The notes beneath the pieces were generated by a model. It was not told the origin of the DNA. It saw only the letters and a program-made list of their open reading frames with translations, and searched no databases. From a virus: 31,487 bases of DNA. Shown here one piece after another: positions 14,707 to 27,235 of this stretch. Location of the stretch: positions 1 through 31,487 of IMG/VR virus record IMGVR_UViG_3300031565_000223; one strand, 5' to 3'. Position numbers and translations under genes: made by a program. Numbering within the stretch: the stretch's first letter is position 1; the number at the start of each line of letters is the position of its first letter.

Positions 14707-17454
14707 ATGGGATTTCGACGCACCGCTAATGCCATAGTCTCTCGACCTGGCGTTGAATTTGATGAGTGGATGGACACGCTTCGCGCTCAAAATGAGGGTG
14801 CGGTACCGCGTGACCATATAAATCGTGTAGCCAAGACTGTTTTACGCAAGTGTGATCCGAAGCAGTATCTTCTTTCACATGCCACCATTGTGGCTTCTGT
14901 TGATACATATGCTCCAAGAAATGTGAAAACTGGGCGCTCGATGAACCAGGGCATTCAGATTGATGTGCGCTGGCCGGATTTTCGCATCAAGCCTGAGTGT
15001 CATGAAATCATCAATAATAACGGCGACGCATGGGAGCGTTCGCTGTTGTTATCAACATATCGTACATTCATCGGTGCCCATAATTATCTTGAACACATTC
15101 AGCTTCCTGCCCTGTCGAAGGGATTTATTGTCGATGCGATCGCTCGTGATCTTGGTAAATCAGCTTACATCGATATCCTTGTTGCCACGGACCGAAAACA
15201 TGGTCAATTAGTTGCGGATATTTTAGCTGGTGAAATCCAAGCCATGTCGATGGGCTGCCATATTCCTGGAACGCAGGTGTATCTCTCCGACGGTAGTCCG
15301 ATCAGTATTGAAGATGTTCGTCCAAATATGGAGGTTCTGACTCAGAAGGGAAACTCCTGTCGGGTCGAAAATCTTCAAATTCGTGAAAATAGATGGAAAG
15401 TCCAGACCATTAAATCAGTCGGTCTTCCATCCATTACATCGACAGACAATCACAACTATTACATAATTCGTTGCGAGACTGTGGAAAAGACCCGAGGTCG
15501 TGGAGGAAAGAATTCTAAACTCCATGTCGTGGAGAAGGACTATCCATTTGATTATGCAGAAGCCCGGACCGTTCGGGAAGGTGACTTCCTCGCTTTCCCC
15601 ATTTCACAGGACGAAGTCCAGTCTGATGTGACTCTATCCGAGGCTCGTCTGCTTGGTCTTTGGATCGGAGATGGGTGGAAGTTCGAGAACAACCATGACT
15701 CCACGATTGGTGTTGGATTTTGCCTAGATGAATCTCACCCCGAAATCGTTCAGGAAGCGATTCAAGCGTTAGACCAAGTTGCTTGGGTGAATCGAGAGCT
15801 TCATGTTGCCATGGGAGGTAACGCTCCTCGGCCTCAGAGCACTTCCGTGTCCAACAGGCGCGGGGCGTCATACCTCATGAATACTTCTCGCTCCTTCCGG
15901 GCGATCGTGGATCGTCATACTTCTGGGAGGACATCATCCGATAAGCTCATCGGGAAATCGGTCATGTCTTGGCCGAAAGACCATCAAATGGCATTCCTTT
16001 CCGGTCTTATAGACTCGGACGGATGTGTTTCGACCAGTAAGCGTGGGACTAAGAATGTTTTTCTTAGCACTAGGAATTTAAAGCTCGCGCATCAATACAT
16101 GCAGATTGCAGCTCGATGTGGCATCATTCCCACTTTCTCAGTTGCAGAACGCAGTGGCACGAAAATGTTGCCTGAGGCAACCGGGACTGATTACCAAATC
16201 AAGCTCCGGAACTCAGATGTTGTTCGAGTTCCGTCCTTGAAGGTTCGTGCAGCTATCGATGGGATTCGGCCCACTAGGGCCGGACGCAATAGTCGATGGA
16301 TTACCGATAAATATATTTATTCTAAAGTTAAGAAAATTGATCGATCTGACTATGCAGGGTTTGTATATGACCTTCAGGTTGACCAAGATCATTCATATGT
16401 GGCGAATGGTGTTGGGGTTTCTAATTGCATCAGCCTTTTTACTGTTTGCAATCGTTGTGGCAACGTAGCCTCTGATGATTCCCAGCTCTGTCCGTGTGTT
16501 TTATACCTTGGTAAGGGTAGCAAATTTGCGGATGATCAGGGTAATGAGCATCCTTTAGCTGAGCTCATTGGTCACGTATCTGTTCCGAATTCGAATCAGT
16601 TCATTGAAGCATCGTGGGTTCGAAACCCGGCTTTCCGTGGCGCAGTTCGTCGGAATATTTTAAATCCTGATGAGTCTAAAATAGCTTCTCAACTTTCTGA
16701 GGCTCATCGGGCGAGAGCATCTCGCGTTATTCCTACGTCTGGAATGAAAAAAGCCGCATCTCGTCGTTTTGCTCAACAAGGCGATGATGAATCGAGTCAA
16801 GATATGGATCTTGATGAACTTCTCGGCCAAGACCAAGGCGGTGGCCAAGATCAGGGTGGCCAAGATCAGGGTGGCCAAGATCAGGGTGGCCAAGATCAGG
16901 GTGGCCAAGATCAGAGTGGCCAAGATGGTCCAGATGAGCCTAAAGCTGACAAAATTGATGAAATGCTCGAGAAGGTTCAAGAGCAACTGTTATCAATATT
17001 AGTTGATAAGCTTGGCGAAAAACTTGAACCGAAACCCGAAGATGTCGGGTCCGTAACCGCTCCCAATCTCATGAGTGGGAATGATAATCTGATACGCTCT
17101 TCAGATGACTTTGACCGGCGTGTACGCCGAATCTTCCCTGAAGCCCGCACTCTTCATAGATGGGCTTCAAGAACATATCGGATTGTCCATGAAGGTGGTC
17201 TGAGAGCTGTTAGAGCTTCTAAATTGACTTCTAAAGATTTGATAGTCCTTTCATGGATTGAAGATCGCGTACGGGGAAGAAACTATTCCTCTCGTTTATA
17301 TAAGACTGCGATGAGAGTAGGATCAATGACGAATTTTCCCAGCGAGACTTCATTTCTTGCCGCATGCAGAATGAAGACTGGCCGGGTTCTTTCCCCCAGT
17401 GAGGAACGGTTCTTCACGTGGAAGGGACGGATTGCTTCCGTCTCCGGACTTTAA
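14707..17454 (+). CDS. prohead maturation protease precursor containing an intein
   Basis: This 915-residue precursor splices to a mature protein of about 525 residues. The N-extein (1-183) contains the prohead-protease core: INNNGDAWERSLLL, then GAHNYLEH with candidate catalytic H130, then KSAYIDILVATDRKHG. It ends in AMSMG, where S181 is the candidate nucleophile. The C-extein resumes with C574 as CISLFTVCNRCGN...LCPC, a Cys-rich ribbon usual after this serine in proteases of large phages, then GHVSVPNSNQFIEASWVRNPAF. Such proteases cleave scaffold and head proteins before DNA packaging. The C-terminal part is a Gln/Gly/Asp tandem-repeat linker (about 712-742), an acidic helix and a basic helical tail ending in RIASVSGL. 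The start has only a weak upstream GGTG. Confidence 0.9.
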   Translation: MGFRRTANAIVSRPGVEFDEWMDTLRAQNEGAVPRDHINRVAKTVLRKCDPKQYLLSHATIVASVDTYAPRNVKTGRSMNQGIQIDVRWPDFRIKPECHEIINNNGDAWERSLLLSTYRTFIGAHNYLEHIQLPALSKGFIVDAIARDLGKSAYIDILVATDRKHGQLVADILAGEIQAMSMGCHIPGTQVYLSDGSPISIEDVRPNMEVLTQKGNSCRVENLQIRENRWKVQTIKSVGLPSITSTDNHNYYIIRCETVEKTRGRGGKNSKLHVVEKDYPFDYAEARTVREGDFLAFPISQDEVQSDVTLSEARLLGLWIGDGWKFENNHDSTIGVGFCLDESHPEIVQEAIQALDQVAWVNRELHVAMGGNAPRPQSTSVSNRRGASYLMNTSRSFRAIVDRHTSGRTSSDKLIGKSVMSWPKDHQMAFLSGLIDSDGCVSTSKRGTKNVFLSTRNLKLAHQYMQIAARCGIIPTFSVAERSGTKMLPEATGTDYQIKLRNSDVVRVPSLKVRAAIDGIRPTRAGRNSRWITDKYIYSKVKKIDRSDYAGFVYDLQVDQDHSYVANGVGVSNCISLFTVCNRCGNVASDDSQLCPCVLYLGKGSKFADDQGNEHPLAELIGHVSVPNSNQFIEASWVRNPAFRGAVRRNILNPDESKIASQLSEAHRARASRVIPTSGMKKAASRRFAQQGDDESSQDMDLDELLGQDQGGGQDQGGQDQGGQDQGGQDQGGQDQSGQDGPDEPKADKIDEMLEKVQEQLLSILVDKLGEKLEPKPEDVGSVTAPNLMSGNDNLIRSSDDFDRRVRRIFPEARTLHRWASRTYRIVHEGGLRAVRASKLTSKDLIVLSWIEDRVRGRNYSSRLYKTAMRVGSMTNFPSETSFLAACRMKTGRVLSPSEERFFTWKGRIASVSGL
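15256..16425 (+). mobile_element. LAGLIDADG-type intein inside the protease (residues 184-573)
   Basis: The intein starts at C184 (CHIPGTQVYLSDG, block A) and ends at N573 in HSYVANGVGVSN (blocks F and G), followed by Cys as the +1 extein residue. A TSTDNHNYY segment fits block B. The usual penultimate His is Ser here; the block F His is present at 562. Two DOD endonuclease motifs occur: LLGLWIGDG at 315-323 and LSGLIDSDG at 431-439. The intein is therefore full-length (390 residues), and both splicing and homing activities appear intact. It lies three residues after the presumed catalytic serine S181, a highly conserved site that suits a homing target. Confidence 0.93.
16840..16929 (+). repeat. 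15-bp tandem repeat encoding Gly-Gly-Gln-Asp-Gln
   Basis: Five perfect copies of ggtggccaagatcag (16840-16914) are followed by one diverged copy. They encode a flexible, acidic, Gln-rich linker after the protease core. Near-identical DNA units imply recent expansion and likely copy-number variation between relatives. Confidence 0.9.
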
Positions 17455-19589: not shown

Positions 19590-20483
19590 ATGACTAATCC
19601 ATTTGGTGTGAACGTTGTTGATAACGCCGTTAAAGAGAAGGTCGTCGACCAATATATTGGTTCGTCGGCAGGTCGTCGTCGTCTTGCTGCATCGATGATT
19701 CAATCGTTGCGTGAGCGTCGCGACTACTCGTCCGTTGGCCGTAAGACCTTCTTGGTCGAGCAGCTTCCGGACGGTGCGCTTCCCATTTACGACAAGGATC
19801 CCGATGTCGTCGCGTACGTCATTGGTGAAGAAGGCGAGTCGATTACTGCCGTGGCGAAGCCGCGTCGCGTGATTTTCCCGCTCTTCGAGATCGCGGCTCT
19901 GCCCAAGGCTCCGCTGACGCAGATTAAGGAACGTCGTTACGACCTCCTTAAGCGTATGCAGGATCTTGGTAAGGCGCAGATCCAGGCTGCCGAAGACGAC
20001 CGCGTCTTCAGCATCATGGATGCCATCGCGGTGAACGGCTTCGATTCGCTTCCGGGCGGAACGAACCCTGACATCCCGGTTGTTGCTCCGATTTCGCCTG
20101 CCGTCCTTGCGGACGCGTTTGCCGAAATTGAAGCGCACGACCTCCGTGTTGCTCGCGTCTACATGAACGCTACGGACTACGCGGACATCCGCAAGTTCGG
20201 TCGCGACGTGCTGGACATCGAGTCGCAGGCGACGCTTTGGAAGACCGGCATGATGAGCACGGGCTGGAATGCTCAGTTCATCGTCAGCCGTCTCGTTCCG
20301 AAGGGCGTTGTCTACATTTGCTGCGAGCCTGAGCACTTCGGTCGGATTCCGGTCCGTACGGAGCTCACGGTCCTCTCGGCGGACAACCCCGAGGAACGTA
20401 CTATCGGATTCTCTATGTTCGAAAACCTCGGCATTGGCGCGTACAACCCGCGCGGCCTGGTGCGTCTCATTGTGACACGCTGA
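19590..20483 (+). CDS. major capsid protein, HK97-like fold
   Basis: This 297-residue protein forms the shell of the head. It reads as a compact HK97-type capsid protein. An N-terminal helical arm (residues 1-45, ending in RERRDYSSVGRKTF) may or may not be trimmed. Next come the LPDGALPIYDKDPDVVAYVI strand region, the helix with LTQIKERRYDLLKRMQD, and the central P-domain/A-domain part (ARVYMNATDYADIRKFGRD). A typical C-terminal strand set follows (PVRTELTVLSADNP...FSMFENLGIGAYNPRGL). It has a strong AAGGA site 7 bases before the ATG. Codons are much more G+C-ending than the genome around it, as expected for the most highly made protein. A strong hairpin follows the stop. Confidence 0.88.
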   Translation: MTNPFGVNVVDNAVKEKVVDQYIGSSAGRRRLAASMIQSLRERRDYSSVGRKTFLVEQLPDGALPIYDKDPDVVAYVIGEEGESITAVAKPRRVIFPLFEIAALPKAPLTQIKERRYDLLKRMQDLGKAQIQAAEDDRVFSIMDAIAVNGFDSLPGGTNPDIPVVAPISPAVLADAFAEIEAHDLRVARVYMNATDYADIRKFGRDVLDIESQATLWKTGMMSTGWNAQFIVSRLVPKGVVYICCEPEHFGRIPVRTELTVLSADNPEERTIGFSMFENLGIGAYNPRGLVRLIVTR

Positions 20484-20520: not shown

Positions 20521-20560
20521 CATCGACCCTCGTCGGATTAATTTCTGACGAGGGTCGATG
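20521..20560 (+). terminator. perfect 14-bp hairpin after the capsid gene
   Basis: CATCGACCCTCGTC (20521-20534) pairs exactly with 20547-20560 around a 12-base loop, 37 bases after the capsid stop. An AT-rich stretch (agtatttatat) follows but no pure T-tract. It is a likely transcript end or 3' stabilising structure. A weaker AAGCC/GGCTT stem precedes it at 20492-20508. Confidence 0.65.
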
Positions 20561-20626: not shown

Positions 20627-22249
20627 ATGCCACAATGCCGTATTCATGGTGAACTACCCGAAACGTCCTTCTCGAAACGAGCTACAGGATATATTCCTCC
20701 GGTTTGTAAACAATGTGAGCGAGATAGCGCTCGTGAAAATCGAAAAGCGAGATATCAAGATCCTACAACTCGGGGTCTGATCCGATCTCAGAATAAATCG
20801 TGGCAACAAAATAATTCGGGTTATCTCTCTGATAAGTTCAAGAAAAAATATTCCTCCGATGAAGTATTTCGGAATCGGATTTTGGATAGAGTATCCTTAT
20901 ATAAAACCGACCCACAAGCTCACAGGTTAAAACGGGAACGAGCCGCGACATACTTCCAACAAAACAAAAGTAAAATTTATGAACGAATACAAGCCAAACA
21001 AGCCAAATATCCGGAACTGAAATTGCGCGGCGTTATTCGTTCTCGTGTTTGGGGTGCATTGAAACAATCGAAAGGTGGAGATTCTGTACTGAATCACCTT
21101 CCATATTCACTTCAAGATTTGAAGCATTACATCGAGTCAAAATTCGAATCATGGATGACTTGGGATAACTGGGGGCCAGCGTCAAATCAGCGACAGACTT
21201 GGCAAATTGACCACATTATCCCTCAGTCAATGTTTCCGTATGAATCCATGGGCTCGGATAATTTTCTTCTTTGTTGGTCCTTGAATAATCTTCGCCCTCT
21301 GGAATCGAAAAGAAATTTCACCGAAGGGAATCGTTCTGACTCATTTAATGGGTGTGAGACATTTTCTCAATTTTTGAGTTATGTTCGTAATACTGGGTAT
21401 GTGTCTGGAGTTATCGATCCGTCATATGAACGATTGAGTTTAATGAATGTTGATGATACGCTTCCTCAGCCGTTTGACGGTCTTTCATATCTTGACTCAC
21501 TTTTCCCACATAGATTCAATTCTCGTTCCGGTCAAAATCGTTCATTTATTGATTTTTGGAATGATGATCTTGAAATTCTTCGTGTTGTTGCTTATGTTGT
21601 GGCTGATGGACGTATTCCCACTCCAAAAATTATATCTACGAATGTCAAATTTAATTCATCACTCCCCGCCCATTTCTATCCGTCCGCAGCTTCGGCTCTC
21701 GTACGGAAGTATGCTTCTGGTGGAGATGTAATTGATCCATTTCTTGGGTGGGGTGGTCGAACGCTCGGAGCTCTTTGTGGCGGAGCGAAATCGATTTGTG
21801 GAACGGACTTGCAGTCCGAGTCGGTCGATGGCTGTCGTCGTTTGGTGGATGACTACGCAAAAATCCGTCTGGTGGACTCGGAATTTACCTGTCAAGATTT
21901 CGCGACATACTTACAAAACACCGAACGTCGTTTCGATTTGTTGATGACGAGTCCACCCTTCATGGCGACTGAAGACTACGGAGTGAAAGGGCACTCTGAC
22001 GTTCGTTCCTGGTCAGAACAGATCGTCCAGCCATTGGTGCGCGGCGCGTTGCGTGTCGTCAAATCCGGTGGTCATATAGCCATTCATGGGCAAGATCGTC
22101 GCAATATGCCGGTTTTGACAACTCTTTTGACAGCTTTCACGGCTGCTGGAATGGAGAAAGTTGCGGAATACCGATACGGGAAGACCGCAGGGCAGTCCGT
22201 TGTTGTATTCCTGAGGACTGGGAAGAACATAAGTACCTATTCAGTATAA
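20627..22249 (+). CDS. HNH endonuclease fused to a DNA methyltransferase
   Basis: This 540-residue fusion has three parts. Residues 4-30 hold a probable zinc finger (C4-x-x-H7-G...C27-x-x-C30). Residues 125-240 hold an HNH nuclease: IDHIIPQ with D195 and H196, then SLNNLRPLESKRN. Residues 285-535 form a class I amino-methyltransferase: AdoMet motif I as DPFLGWGGRTLGA (370-382) and catalytic motif IV TSPPF (441-445), which is typical of N4-cytosine or N6-adenine enzymes. It lies directly after the major capsid gene, has its own apparent promoter and is probably a mobile element. The methyltransferase may protect the cut site, making a one-polypeptide restriction-modification-like homing enzyme. 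Free-standing HNH enzymes are usual in phages; the fusion is the unusual part. Specificity cannot be read from sequence. Confidence 0.88.
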   Translation: MPQCRIHGELPETSFSKRATGYIPPVCKQCERDSARENRKARYQDPTTRGLIRSQNKSWQQNNSGYLSDKFKKKYSSDEVFRNRILDRVSLYKTDPQAHRLKRERAATYFQQNKSKIYERIQAKQAKYPELKLRGVIRSRVWGALKQSKGGDSVLNHLPYSLQDLKHYIESKFESWMTWDNWGPASNQRQTWQIDHIIPQSMFPYESMGSDNFLLCWSLNNLRPLESKRNFTEGNRSDSFNGCETFSQFLSYVRNTGYVSGVIDPSYERLSLMNVDDTLPQPFDGLSYLDSLFPHRFNSRSGQNRSFIDFWNDDLEILRVVAYVVADGRIPTPKIISTNVKFNSSLPAHFYPSAASALVRKYASGGDVIDPFLGWGGRTLGALCGGAKSICGTDLQSESVDGCRRLVDDYAKIRLVDSEFTCQDFATYLQNTERRFDLLMTSPPFMATEDYGVKGHSDVRSWSEQIVQPLVRGALRVVKSGGHIAIHGQDRRNMPVLTTLLTAFTAAGMEKVAEYRYGKTAGQSVVVFLRTGKNISTYSV

Positions 22250-22304: not shown

Positions 22305-22343
22305 CTTGACATACTGTCAAGAGAATCTTGACATGCTGTCAAG
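22305..22343 (+). promoter_or_regulatory. two tandem palindromic operators
   Basis: The palindrome CTTGACA-N3-TGTCAAG occurs at 22305-22321 and 22327-22343, both followed by AGAAT, with a 22-base period (about two helical turns). The second palindrome contains the -35 box of the promoter. A dimeric repressor bound here would block RNA polymerase and could bind both sites on one face of the DNA. Confidence 0.75.
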
Positions 22344-22356
22344 AGAATGCTATAAT
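22328..22356 (+). promoter_or_regulatory. perfect-consensus sigma70 promoter
   Basis: TTGACA (22328-22333), a 17-base spacer and TATAAT (22351-22356) match the bacterial housekeeping consensus exactly. A start near 22363 would give a leader of about 68 bases before ATG 22431. It is the strongest promoter in the window. Confidence 0.85.
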
Positions 22357-22430: not shown

Positions 22431-22880
22431 ATGTCTGAAAAACGTAAACCCGAACAGCAGCACTTGCCTCTGAATTCTAATCCTGGTCTCCTTTCAGAAG
22501 ATAAGCGCAAATGGTGCGCGAGCTCATGGAATAAGCGTGCTCTAAAACAGCCTCGAATTGCCGTATTTCATTATGCGATGAATTCAACGCCCCGGCCTAC
22601 GGCTCCTGATGAGACTATTGCTTACGGTTTTATGACCTTGAATAAATTTCATGATCGAGAACCAGAGGCCATTAGGAAAACGATTGAGGCACTCGACCCT
22701 GAATGGTTTGACTCCTACCCTAAAAAAGAAGGAACAGATTTTGATGATAGTTTTAAGAAAGCTGTTATCGGTGAGCTCGCTCGAGCCTTTTACCGACATG
22801 GTTTGGCTGCGTATGGAAAACCTGGTTTGCGTAAATCGGAAAGTGATGAGGTAACTAACTCACCGCTCGCAGCCCTTTAA
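22431..22880 (+). CDS. unknown protein expressed from the operator-controlled promoter
   Basis: This 149-residue protein has a good GGAG site 6 bases before ATG 22431. The N-terminus is basic and polar (MSEKRKPEQQ). The middle holds aromatic-rich segments (RIAVFHYAMN, TIAYGFMTLNKF), and the C-terminal half looks helical (KKAVIGELARAFYRHGLAAYG). There is no cysteine cluster, signal peptide or recognisable helix-turn-helix. It is the single gene between a perfect repressible promoter and a 16-bp hairpin, so it is a self-contained, tightly regulated unit. An early or host-takeover role is plausible but unproven. Confidence 0.7.
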   Translation: MSEKRKPEQQHLPLNSNPGLLSEDKRKWCASSWNKRALKQPRIAVFHYAMNSTPRPTAPDETIAYGFMTLNKFHDREPEAIRKTIEALDPEWFDSYPKKEGTDFDDSFKKAVIGELARAFYRHGLAAYGKPGLRKSESDEVTNSPLAAL

Positions 22881-23899: not shown

Positions 23900-23927
23900 T
23901 TGACCTACATTGTAATATATGTATGGA
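23900..23927 (+). promoter_or_regulatory. weak candidate promoter for the lipoprotein gene
   Basis: TTGACC (23900-23905) and TATGGA (23922-23927) are spaced by 16 bases in the divergent region. The -35 box is good and the -10 box is poor, so this is tentative. Confidence 0.3.
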
Positions 23928-23990
23928 ATATTCTTCGTAAATGTTTCGGGGCTTCGTGTATATCCTTTTGTCTTTAACCTGGAGTTCTTT

Positions 23991-25370
23991 ATGGGAAAAA
24001 TTTCAAATATTCTGTTTATCTTTGGTCTGACTTTCGTATTTGCGTGTGGTGAAAATAAGACTCAACCCGAGTCAAACGTAGCGGTTGTTAACCCGCCTGA
24101 TGACTCAACTGCTGATCCCGGCCTACCTGAAGATGCCGGTTCTGGCACAGCCGGTTCTGGCACAGCCGGTTCTGGCACAGCCGGTACGGATGGCGGTGAA
24201 GCTGGTACTGGCGGTGAAGCTGGTACTGGCGGAACCGGCATGGAACCCGCCTCTGTTTGTGCTTGTAGTGGCACCAACTGCGCGATGTGTGGAAACGTTT
24301 GTGTTGACCTCGATACGGATCCGAAGAATTGCGGAGCATGTGGCTATGCGGTGGTGAACGGAAGAATGTGTTCGGATGGCGCTCCGAGCCCTGCTTGGCA
24401 GCCCATTTCCACTAATGGTGGCGCTCCTCTGCCTCGAACTGGACATGCTGCAGCTTACCTTGACGGACTTACTTCTCCGTCCGTAGATGGTGCTTTTGTT
24501 GTATCTGGTGGTTCAGATACTGTTGGTGGTCTGGCAACTAATATGATCGGTATTTATTATCCGACGTGGGATAGGTGGTCAATCGGCAGGCCCTGGCTTG
24601 GTACTGCACGCTGTCATCACGGGTCTGTTGCTTCTCGTGATAATGTTTATATTTTCGGTGGCCTTTCTGACTGTTCTAAGGATTCAAGCGTCGTCTCTAC
24701 TGATCTAGAAGTTCAAGATCGTGCAACGCTCATTTCCATGTTTCCAAAGTGGAGCTCTATTTCGGGTGTTGGTGTTGGTGTTCCCGGGCCTCGTTATAAC
24801 TTTGCACATATTTGGACGGGGATGGGTATTTTCGTTTACGGCGGGTCTGATTCTAATTCGTTGCCGCTGTCAACTGGTGCGATGTTTGATCCAGTTAGTT
24901 CAACTTGGGTTGATGCAGACTGCGCTCTTCCTGATTGCGCTCGGTCCGGTAATATGAGTGCGTTCATGAACCATGCTACCAGATCTGTAAATTTGTTTGG
25001 TGGAAGTAAGATTAACGGTCTTGATTATGTACCTATTGTTAATAATGGGTCAATTCCTCTTTCTCCAATCGGTTGGTACACACTTCCGGTTCCTAACGGC
25101 ACTCCCGATCCGTTACCGAAGCGTCATGCTGATTCTATCCACAGAGTCTTCTACCTCACGTCTGAAGATTGTTCAAGCCCTTCCGTGTTGATTTATGATA
25201 AGAAAAATGAGATGTGGTCTTCTGACACGTCTCCGACTCCTCCAGGCCTTGTTGCTGAAGCAGTGGTTGCATGGACCGGAGCTGAAATGCTTGCCTGGTC
25301 AGGTGCTTGTGGAAATTCTGCTCCGGTTTCCATCGGAGGTCGTTATCAGCCTCCCGCTTATATCCCTTGA
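23991..25370 (+). CDS. lipoprotein with Myxococcota-type Cys-rich motif and kelch-like propeller
   Basis: ATG 23991 is chosen because GGAG lies 6 bases before it and a lipoprotein signal follows at once: MGKISN, a hydrophobic stretch, then VFAC with lipidated Cys at 19. A Gly/Ser/Thr/Ala repeat linker follows (about residues 45-80). Next is a Cys-rich segment from C90 to about residue 130, including CGNVCVDLDTDPKNCGACG, a pattern I know from secreted and surface proteins of Myxococcota. The rest contains recurrent blade-like motifs (RTGHAAAY, VYIFGG, IFVYGG, VNLFGG) typical of kelch-like beta-propellers. It should be anchored in a host membrane facing outward. Likely host-derived, it could alter the surface and block superinfection, or act during release; no direct evidence favours either. 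Confidence 0.8.
   Translation: MGKISNILFIFGLTFVFACGENKTQPESNVAVVNPPDDSTADPGLPEDAGSGTAGSGTAGSGTAGTDGGEAGTGGEAGTGGTGMEPASVCACSGTNCAMCGNVCVDLDTDPKNCGACGYAVVNGRMCSDGAPSPAWQPISTNGGAPLPRTGHAAAYLDGLTSPSVDGAFVVSGGSDTVGGLATNMIGIYYPTWDRWSIGRPWLGTARCHHGSVASRDNVYIFGGLSDCSKDSSVVSTDLEVQDRATLISMFPKWSSISGVGVGVPGPRYNFAHIWTGMGIFVYGGSDSNSLPLSTGAMFDPVSSTWVDADCALPDCARSGNMSAFMNHATRSVNLFGGSKINGLDYVPIVNNGSIPLSPIGWYTLPVPNGTPDPLPKRHADSIHRVFYLTSEDCSSPSVLIYDKKNEMWSSDTSPTPPGLVAEAVVAWTGAEMLAWSGACGNSAPVSIGGRYQPPAYIP
24136..24180 (+). repeat. three perfect 15-bp coding repeats in the lipoprotein linker
   Basis: The unit ccggttctggcacag occurs three times in tandem and encodes the Gly-Ser-Gly-Thr-Ala linker. Exact identity suggests recent expansion. 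Confidence 0.9.
24192..24227 (+). repeat. two perfect 18-bp coding repeats in the lipoprotein linker
   Basis: The unit ggcggtgaagctggtact occurs twice in tandem and encodes Gly-Gly-Glu-Ala-Gly-Thr. It directly follows the 15-bp repeat array and extends the flexible linker between the lipid anchor and the Cys-rich segment. Confidence 0.85.
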
Positions 25371-26734: not shown

Positions 26735-27235
26735 TTAACCTTCCAACTCTATCATTGTTACGATTCTATCGGTCATCTCTTCACCACCCCATATCGCTAC
26801 CGACCCGACTTTCCATATGACTGGATCGAATTCTAAATCATCGCATGGATCTTCTGAGTAAGATAGAGTTATGTGTGGTTCAAACTTTGGATACTTTTCG
26901 GAGTATCCAACGTCTGCTTCTTTCATTTGTTTCGTAATCTCGGTTCTAAACTTAGCAATCGTCGGGGACTGAACCCGAGCTATAACCGGGACCCCGCTGT
27001 CCGGGTTCGCTGAGAAACAAGTTCTTGTTGCACATCCGACTAGAAACGGCTTTGTTTTTTGTGCTAAGGCCGCGACTACTGCACCTGCTCTAATCACTTG
27101 CGCTAACGGAGCCATTTTGCCGAGGTATACGAGAGTTATATGCATTTCTTCAGGCTCAGACCGTTCACCGGGAGCCTCTATCATATATAACTCTTGTGCT
27201 ATCTTCTTAGGTACTTTGATGCCTATGAACGCCAC
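26735..27235 (-). CDS. 2H phosphoesterase (LigT / 2'-5' RNA ligase-like)
   Basis: This 166-residue protein starts at GTG 27235. It carries the two signature motifs of 2H phosphoesterases, H32-I-T34-L and H121-I-T123-L-S, placed 89 residues apart as expected, within the usual length range. Members cleave or form 2',3'-cyclic or 2'-5' phosphodiester bonds in RNA or nucleotides. Phage members include enzymes that destroy cyclic nucleotide alarm signals of CBASS defence (Acb1) and possible RNA-repair enzymes. Substrate choice cannot be read from these motifs. It is the first gene of a two-gene reverse-strand unit, divergent from the gene at 27357. Confidence 0.82.
   Translation of the reverse strand: MAFIGIKVPKKIAQELYMIEAPGERSEPEEMHITLVYLGKMAPLAQVIRAGAVVAALAQKTKPFLVGCATRTCFSANPDSGVPVIARVQSPTIAKFRTEITKQMKEADVGYSEKYPKFEPHITLSYSEDPCDDLEFDPVIWKVGSVAIWGGEEMTDRIVTMIELEG

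Follow-up and report, generated by a model that had tools for sequence, protein, structure and literature searches.

The gene at 20627–22249 (+) of the window, as the whole stretch of 31,487 nucleotides of viral DNA analysed here is called (IMG/VR record IMGVR_UViG_3300031565_000223), encodes a zinc ribbon, an HNH nuclease and an amino-methyltransferase (MTase) fused in one polypeptide of 540 aa. Judged from sequence comparison, it is probably a free-standing homing endonuclease gene that resides at a hotspot behind the capsid gene and is equipped with its own antidote. The window itself is a 31-kb fragment from a huge-phage lineage, which includes contigs of up to 619 kb with capsid proteins 75–97% identical; named relatives, by identity of the capsid protein, are LR745208.1 (76%), Tunturi_5 (45%) and Bacillus phage G (36%).

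Reading of the open frame demonstrated that all 540 residues are encoded without interruption, and the whole chain was modelled by AlphaFold2 with a mean pLDDT of 91.1. The zinc ribbon (residues 3–30, 20633–20716, +) is built from C4-x2-H7 and C27-x2-C30, and is followed by the HNH catalytic region with D195, H196, N221 and N230 (21209–21316, +). An alignment of six HNH relatives shows no substitution at C4, C27, C30 or any of the four HNH residues, so that the catalytic residues of the homing-type nuclease are intact. The MTase motifs come in the order I then IV, both placed by motif search and alignment: motif I, DPFLGWGG, for SAM binding at residues 370–377 (21734–21757, +), and motif IV, TSPPF, of the exocyclic amino-methyltransferase type at residues 441–445 (21947–21961, +). 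Residues D370, G374, G376, R378 and S442-P443-P444 are invariant in six MTase relatives. The joining of a zinc finger, an HNH core and an MTase, as described in the earlier note from the motifs alone, is thus borne out by a single frame and by conservation of the motifs in relatives.

Pfam matches to both halves are weak and under the cut-off (N6_N4_Mtase, E 0.0018; HNH_4, E 0.0044), and PHROGs likewise names them weakly; the homology of the halves therefore rests on relatives, motifs and fold. The same domain order, a check for which had been proposed, was found in contigs L018, L019 and L020, where a 547-residue version is located directly 3' of the same capsid gene, and in more distant versions encoded by L120 and L123. 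Since these independent contigs encode the same fusion, chance, an assembly error or a frameshift artefact is ruled out as its origin, as is a lone recent fusion confined to one phage, given the further nuclease-MTase fusions in related viruses. The fusion in the window is genuine and, as far as the sequences tell, old. A scan of the genome contigs with the whole protein gave no confirmed relative, and a search of plasmids gave matches to the HNH half only.

The MTase half has the features of an amino-MTase of the N4-cytosine or N6-adenine type, namely an FxGxG-like motif I, a motif IV of the form [S/D/N]-P-P-[Y/F] and a Rossmann MTase fold, as concluded from the alignment, the AlphaFold2 model and fold comparison. 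Comparison of the model with the PDB revealed the RNA MTases RlmI, TrmN and Trm11 as the nearest solved folds, while among viral models the half matches pithovirus proteins annotated as cytosine-N4-specific DNA MTases. Because the closest folds are RNA MTases, the assignment of DNA as substrate rests on motif IV, on the DNA-MTase annotations of the viral relatives and on the nuclease partner; from these, DNA rather than RNA is presumably the substrate. In the AlphaFold2 model, about 95 residues follow motif IV and continue the MTase fold, with no recognisable target-recognition domain; for this reason a site common to nuclease and MTase can only be inferred.

The conserved neighbour and presumed homing target is the gene of the major capsid protein (MCP; 19590–20483, +; PHROG major head protein, E 6e-47), for which 80 related viral loci were available. 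The fusion gene begins 144 bases downstream of the MCP stop codon, just behind a perfect inverted repeat resembling a terminator hairpin 3' of the MCP gene (20521–20560, +), and in the other loci whose junctions were read the insert likewise starts just past the corresponding hairpin. The next phage gene lies at 22431–22880 (+). In L138 its homologue (64% aa identity) follows about 370 bases after the MCP gene with no nuclease between, and this locus represents the unoccupied site. Among the closest carriers and non-carriers the MCP is about 90–97% identical in amino acids.

The census of this position drew on 62 non-redundant MCP loci, nearly all of them from metagenome contigs, in which the sequence continues for 1 kb or more past the gene; classes were assigned with small custom HMMs and with Pfam on representatives. 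A homing-type nuclease or its remnant, of the HNH, LAGLIDADG, Vsr-like or PD-(D/E)XK kind, was found in 39 of the 62 loci, a D12-type MTase alone in one, and neither in 22. The most frequent occupant is a Vsr-like nuclease fused to a Mom domain (9 loci, and one more in which it is split into two frames), followed by HNH alone (8 loci, several truncated), LAGLIDADG alone (7), HNH or HNH-deleted forms with the MTase (6), LAGLIDADG-MTase (3), other HNH (2), LAGLIDADG remnants (2) and a zinc/PD-(D/E)XK protein (1). The same models, applied to 316 kb of sequence on the 5' side of the MCP gene, detected no such nuclease (0 of 77 loci). The post-MCP position is hence an intergenic insertion hotspot with occupied and empty alleles, a pattern that is the mark of free-standing homing endonucleases beside a conserved gene (PMC2988022, PMC12724721). 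The capsid-adjacent location noticed earlier is accordingly correct, although it is the rule for the family and not unusual as had been supposed. Because unfused nucleases (the HNH and LAGLIDADG genes, several truncated) occupy the same spot, a modification domain is not obligatory for residence there. A 619-kb contig carries three tandem LAGLIDADG genes behind the capsid gene (L179, 6000–9111), and in the viral contig L002 (1106–4460) three coding segments for a zinc/HNH nuclease of the type seen in the window are packed into about 3.4 kb.

Searches with the MTase alone, which are blind to capsids, yielded 12 nuclease fusions, with LAGLIDADG, Vsr/PD-(D/E)XK-like, zinc/PD-(D/E)XK and AP2/HNH-like partners. 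Overall, the same MTase family is fused to HNH, LAGLIDADG_2 (Pfam E down to 2e-38), Vsr/PD-(D/E)XK-like and zinc-PD-(D/E)XK nucleases. Nine of the 12 fusions lie directly behind an MCP gene, as against none of 70 standalone MTases (Fisher p 7.5e-10); after rough thinning the figures are 7 of 10 and 0 of 40 (p 1e-6). When 63 MTase domains were placed in a tree, the fusions did not group according to their nuclease, the LAGLIDADG fusions needing five changes, of which at least two are forced by well-supported branches, and the HNH fusions two; therefore, the nucleases have been exchanged or acquired repeatedly. Across 16 large records (72–619 kb), strong matches to the MTase family (E < 1e-40) all fall within long ORFs of 394–1230 aa, and each positive genome has a single one. 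Seven of the 16 have no strong match, and none of these seven has an MTase fusion behind the MCP gene. The sole off-site copy, in G009, is a zinc/Vsr-like nuclease-MTase fusion adjoining a tail gene, and the same arrangement recurs in L027 next to a close homologue of that tail gene.

A second modification chemistry is found at the same site. In every Vsr-like protein behind the capsid gene that was scanned with Pfam, an EDxHD-like nuclease core is followed by a Mom domain at the C-terminus (PF25680, E 1e-18 to 1e-24). Mom domains are also frequent elsewhere in these genomes, with up to 8 hits per genome, and in all 20 further Mom ORFs that were read the chain also bears a nuclease. In most of them it is recognised by the Vsr-like nuclease model, and in the others by pairs of HNH-like or PD-(D/E)XK-like motifs, found on inspection or with Pfam. 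It is difficult to account for the pairing of two independent chemistries with several nuclease folds unless the modification serves the nuclease. No description of this large nuclease-Mom family of huge phages was found in the open-access literature. Many of the Mom ORFs read (among L197, L205 and others in G002, G004, G007 and G013) possess DPEYR-type repeats ahead of the nuclease.

Comparison of the window with L020, its closest relative, illustrates how such a gene changes. DNA similarity ends at the capsid stop codon (20485) and returns within the fusion gene at 21671. The exchanged half, comprising the nuclease and the N-terminal part of the MTase (residues 1–348, 20627–21670, +), is saturated at synonymous sites, with 37% amino acid identity over residues 1–340; the MTase catalytic core (about residues 349–533, 21671–22225, +) is 86% identical in DNA. 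For residues 349–520 of the core, dN is 0.064 and dS 0.57, a dS matched by the capsid gene (0.56) and by a downstream gene (0.52). Because the dS of the core equals that of the MCP gene, the core has descended with the phage, and its recent transfer, suspected from the 86% DNA identity, is ruled out. In this one pair, then, the MTase core is vertical, and the nuclease with the N-terminal MTase part has been exchanged for a distant allele, a pattern that would be expected if the swapped half carried a specificity common to nuclease and MTase. The Vsr-Mom pair L140/L145 likewise shows turnover of the cassette horizontal relative to its neighbours, with a dS of 0.32 in the MCP gene as against 2.15 in the cassette, and both halves, Vsr and Mom, are under purifying selection. 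L163 and L115 have both lost the HNH core, and the MTase is kept under purifying selection (dN 0.063, dS 0.878 between the two). In L163 (5989–7712) the deletion is in frame, and a separate small HNH gene overlaps the MTase stop codon, giving a split, operon-like version; the reading of this locus as an antidote only is weakened by that neighbour.

The mechanism proposed for the window protein comprises cutting, methylation, a common site specificity and homing, all predicted activities. The zinc-ribbon/HNH half would recognise and cleave an extended target within or close to the conserved 3' end of the capsid gene in co-infecting relatives without the cassette, and repair from the carrier DNA would copy the cassette and its flanks into the cut relative. 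Outside an intron, a homing endonuclease leaves its target intact on arrival, so the carrier has to be spared by its own enzyme. For ordinary free-standing homing genes, sequence differences at the site are assumed to provide this escape, and in one published account carrier immunity is ascribed to a differing cut-site sequence (PMC12724721). In the window protein the MTase half would instead place a methyl group on an exocyclic amine (N4 of cytosine or N6 of adenine) within the nuclease's own target in the carrier DNA, and the target could then stay intact within an essential gene without suicide.

The T4-like free-standing homing endonucleases, to our knowledge, include none with a DNA-modification domain. 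With SegF, MobE and F-TevI (PMC2988022) the window gene shares a stand-alone nuclease gene in a gap by a conserved essential gene, mosaic presence and nuclease families of the homing type. An HNH homing nuclease is likewise associated with a phage DNA methylase in the ShiLan element (PMC11855218), where the HNH gene is inserted in another frame into an actinophage methylase gene, the host of the insertion; by contrast, in the window HNH and MTase share one frame, the HNH domain is N-terminal and the conserved neighbour is a capsid gene. Frame and domain order thus rule out an HNH gene inserted into an MTase gene in the ShiLan manner. The Vsr-like proteins behind the capsid gene end in a domain of the family to which Mom of phage Mu belongs (PF25680). 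Mu Mom stands alone, whereas in all members read here the domain follows a homing-type nuclease on the same chain. N4-type MTases of the window's MTase family also occur as standalone proteins in large phages; two of these, the 'N-4 cytosine-specific DNA methylase' of Vibrio phage 2.058.O and DAC16_114 of a Bacteroides phage, show 22–23% identity over the domain; they are without a nuclease half and do not adjoin an MCP gene.

Of the two functions that the earlier note had offered, a self-protecting homing enzyme or a compact restriction-modification system, the former is better supported, by the hotspot, the several nuclease folds and the two chemistries, and the latter stands as its main rival, although an unlikely one. 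According to that rival, the protein would be a single-chain restriction-modification enzyme of the phage, type IIG-like in function, serving superinfection exclusion: it would methylate many sites in its own genome and cut unmodified competitor or host DNA there. The logic of an antidote is common to this rival and to the homing reading. The presence of nuclease and MTase in one chain is in keeping with it, as are the weak resemblance to type II MTases in PADLOC (E 3e-5) and the L163 locus, in which the MTase remains under purifying selection without the HNH core and the adjoining HNH gene recalls a restriction-modification operon. However, a constant location directly after the MCP gene, or next to a tail gene, with occupied and empty alleles, fits homing genes and not restriction-modification genes, and nuclease families such as LAGLIDADG_2 and Vsr-like would be expected of homing genes instead. 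Type IIG/IIC enzymes possess a PD-(D/E)XK nuclease and a target-recognition domain. Eco57I and TspGWI (PMC2700111, PMC3384240) resemble the window protein in combining an amino-MTase and an N-terminal nuclease in one polypeptide, but the latter differs in its HNH/homing-type nuclease, the lack of a recognisable target-recognition domain and its hotspot behind a capsid gene. No restriction-modification nuclease was matched, and neither Pfam nor NCBIfam gave a type IIG nuclease-MTase family above the cut-off for the window protein.

Still less probable is a modular coincidence, in which a general anti-restriction MTase hitchhikes on a homing endonuclease as cargo offsetting its cost, the two having unrelated site specificities. 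An anti-restriction role is known for the modification made by Mu Mom, which lends this idea some plausibility. Moraphages, furthermore, pair homing endonucleases with antitoxin genes, a pairing interpreted either as regulation or as compensation for the cost (PMC12619734). Cargo could, however, be carried as separate genes, yet in the large genomes surveyed all strong matches to the MTase family fall in long fused ORFs, and none of the further Mom ORFs that were read stands alone; moreover, the N-terminal MTase part moved together with the nuclease between the window and L020, as expected for a common specificity. A nuclease-dead or repair/recombination protein unrelated to mobility, such as an endonuclease VII-like resolvase with an MTase, is very improbable. 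It is suggested by a weak match to PHROG 1035 'endonuclease VII' (E 0.0012) and by relatives so annotated. In the endonuclease VII/DHHRN family (F-CphI, Hpy99I), a DHDH-like catalytic motif is nested between two zinc CxxC pairs (PMC6083498), but the window protein lacks this nesting, its zinc cysteines being at 4–30 and its catalytic motif at 195–230, so that the cysteines are about 165 residues from the HNH core. Presence or absence at one site and replacement of the nuclease fold do not suit a housekeeping resolvase either.

Returning to the homing endonuclease with its own antidote, it is about an even question whether the window gene represents a whole new selfish class, the 'self-immunising' homing endonucleases. 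In this class, unrelated nucleases (HNH, LAGLIDADG, Vsr/EDxHD-like, PD-(D/E)XK) would have been joined repeatedly to unrelated modifiers (amino-MTase, Mom), one chain cutting the unmodified allele and marking its own, and the modification would be limited to a single site or a few in each genome. Such genes, if real, could live beside essential genes of unchangeable sequence; if the fused modifier protects the carrier, the most constrained genes, capsid and tail, are open to homing genes, and homing endonucleases and restriction-modification systems form a testable continuum. On the same condition, natural fusions to LAGLIDADG or HNH DNA binders are predicted to methylate DNA, or to modify it in the manner of Mom, at targeted sites, and these would be useful enzymes. 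Among open-access papers, no earlier description of homing-nuclease fusions with an MTase or Mom was found.

Several other features of the window deserve mention. Right after the fusion gene, at 22306–22356, are two tandem palindromes of the form TTGACA-N3-TGTCAA (0 expected by chance), the second of which shares bases with a consensus sigma-70 promoter (TTGACA, 17 bases, TATAAT) in front of the gene at 22431; the segment looks like a strong promoter under the control of a repressor. Upstream, at 14707–17454, a gene resembling a head maturation protease is interrupted by an intein (Pfam Intein_splicing, E 9e-8) that includes a homing domain of the LAGLIDADG kind (LAGLIDADG_3, E 7e-14), a second homing element in the head-gene cluster, and an intein-like segment is also present at the start of L020. 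The gene at 216–1460 encodes a leucine-rich-repeat-variant/HEAT-like repeat protein with an N-terminal PcfJ-like region. At 26735–27235 (−) a 2H phosphoesterase/2'-5' RNA-ligase-like protein is encoded, with a weak match to the anti-CBASS protein Acb1 (E 7.5e-6, just under the cut-off). Finally, the gene at 23919–25370 encodes a phage Kelch-repeat beta-propeller protein, the domain being mostly known from eukaryotes.
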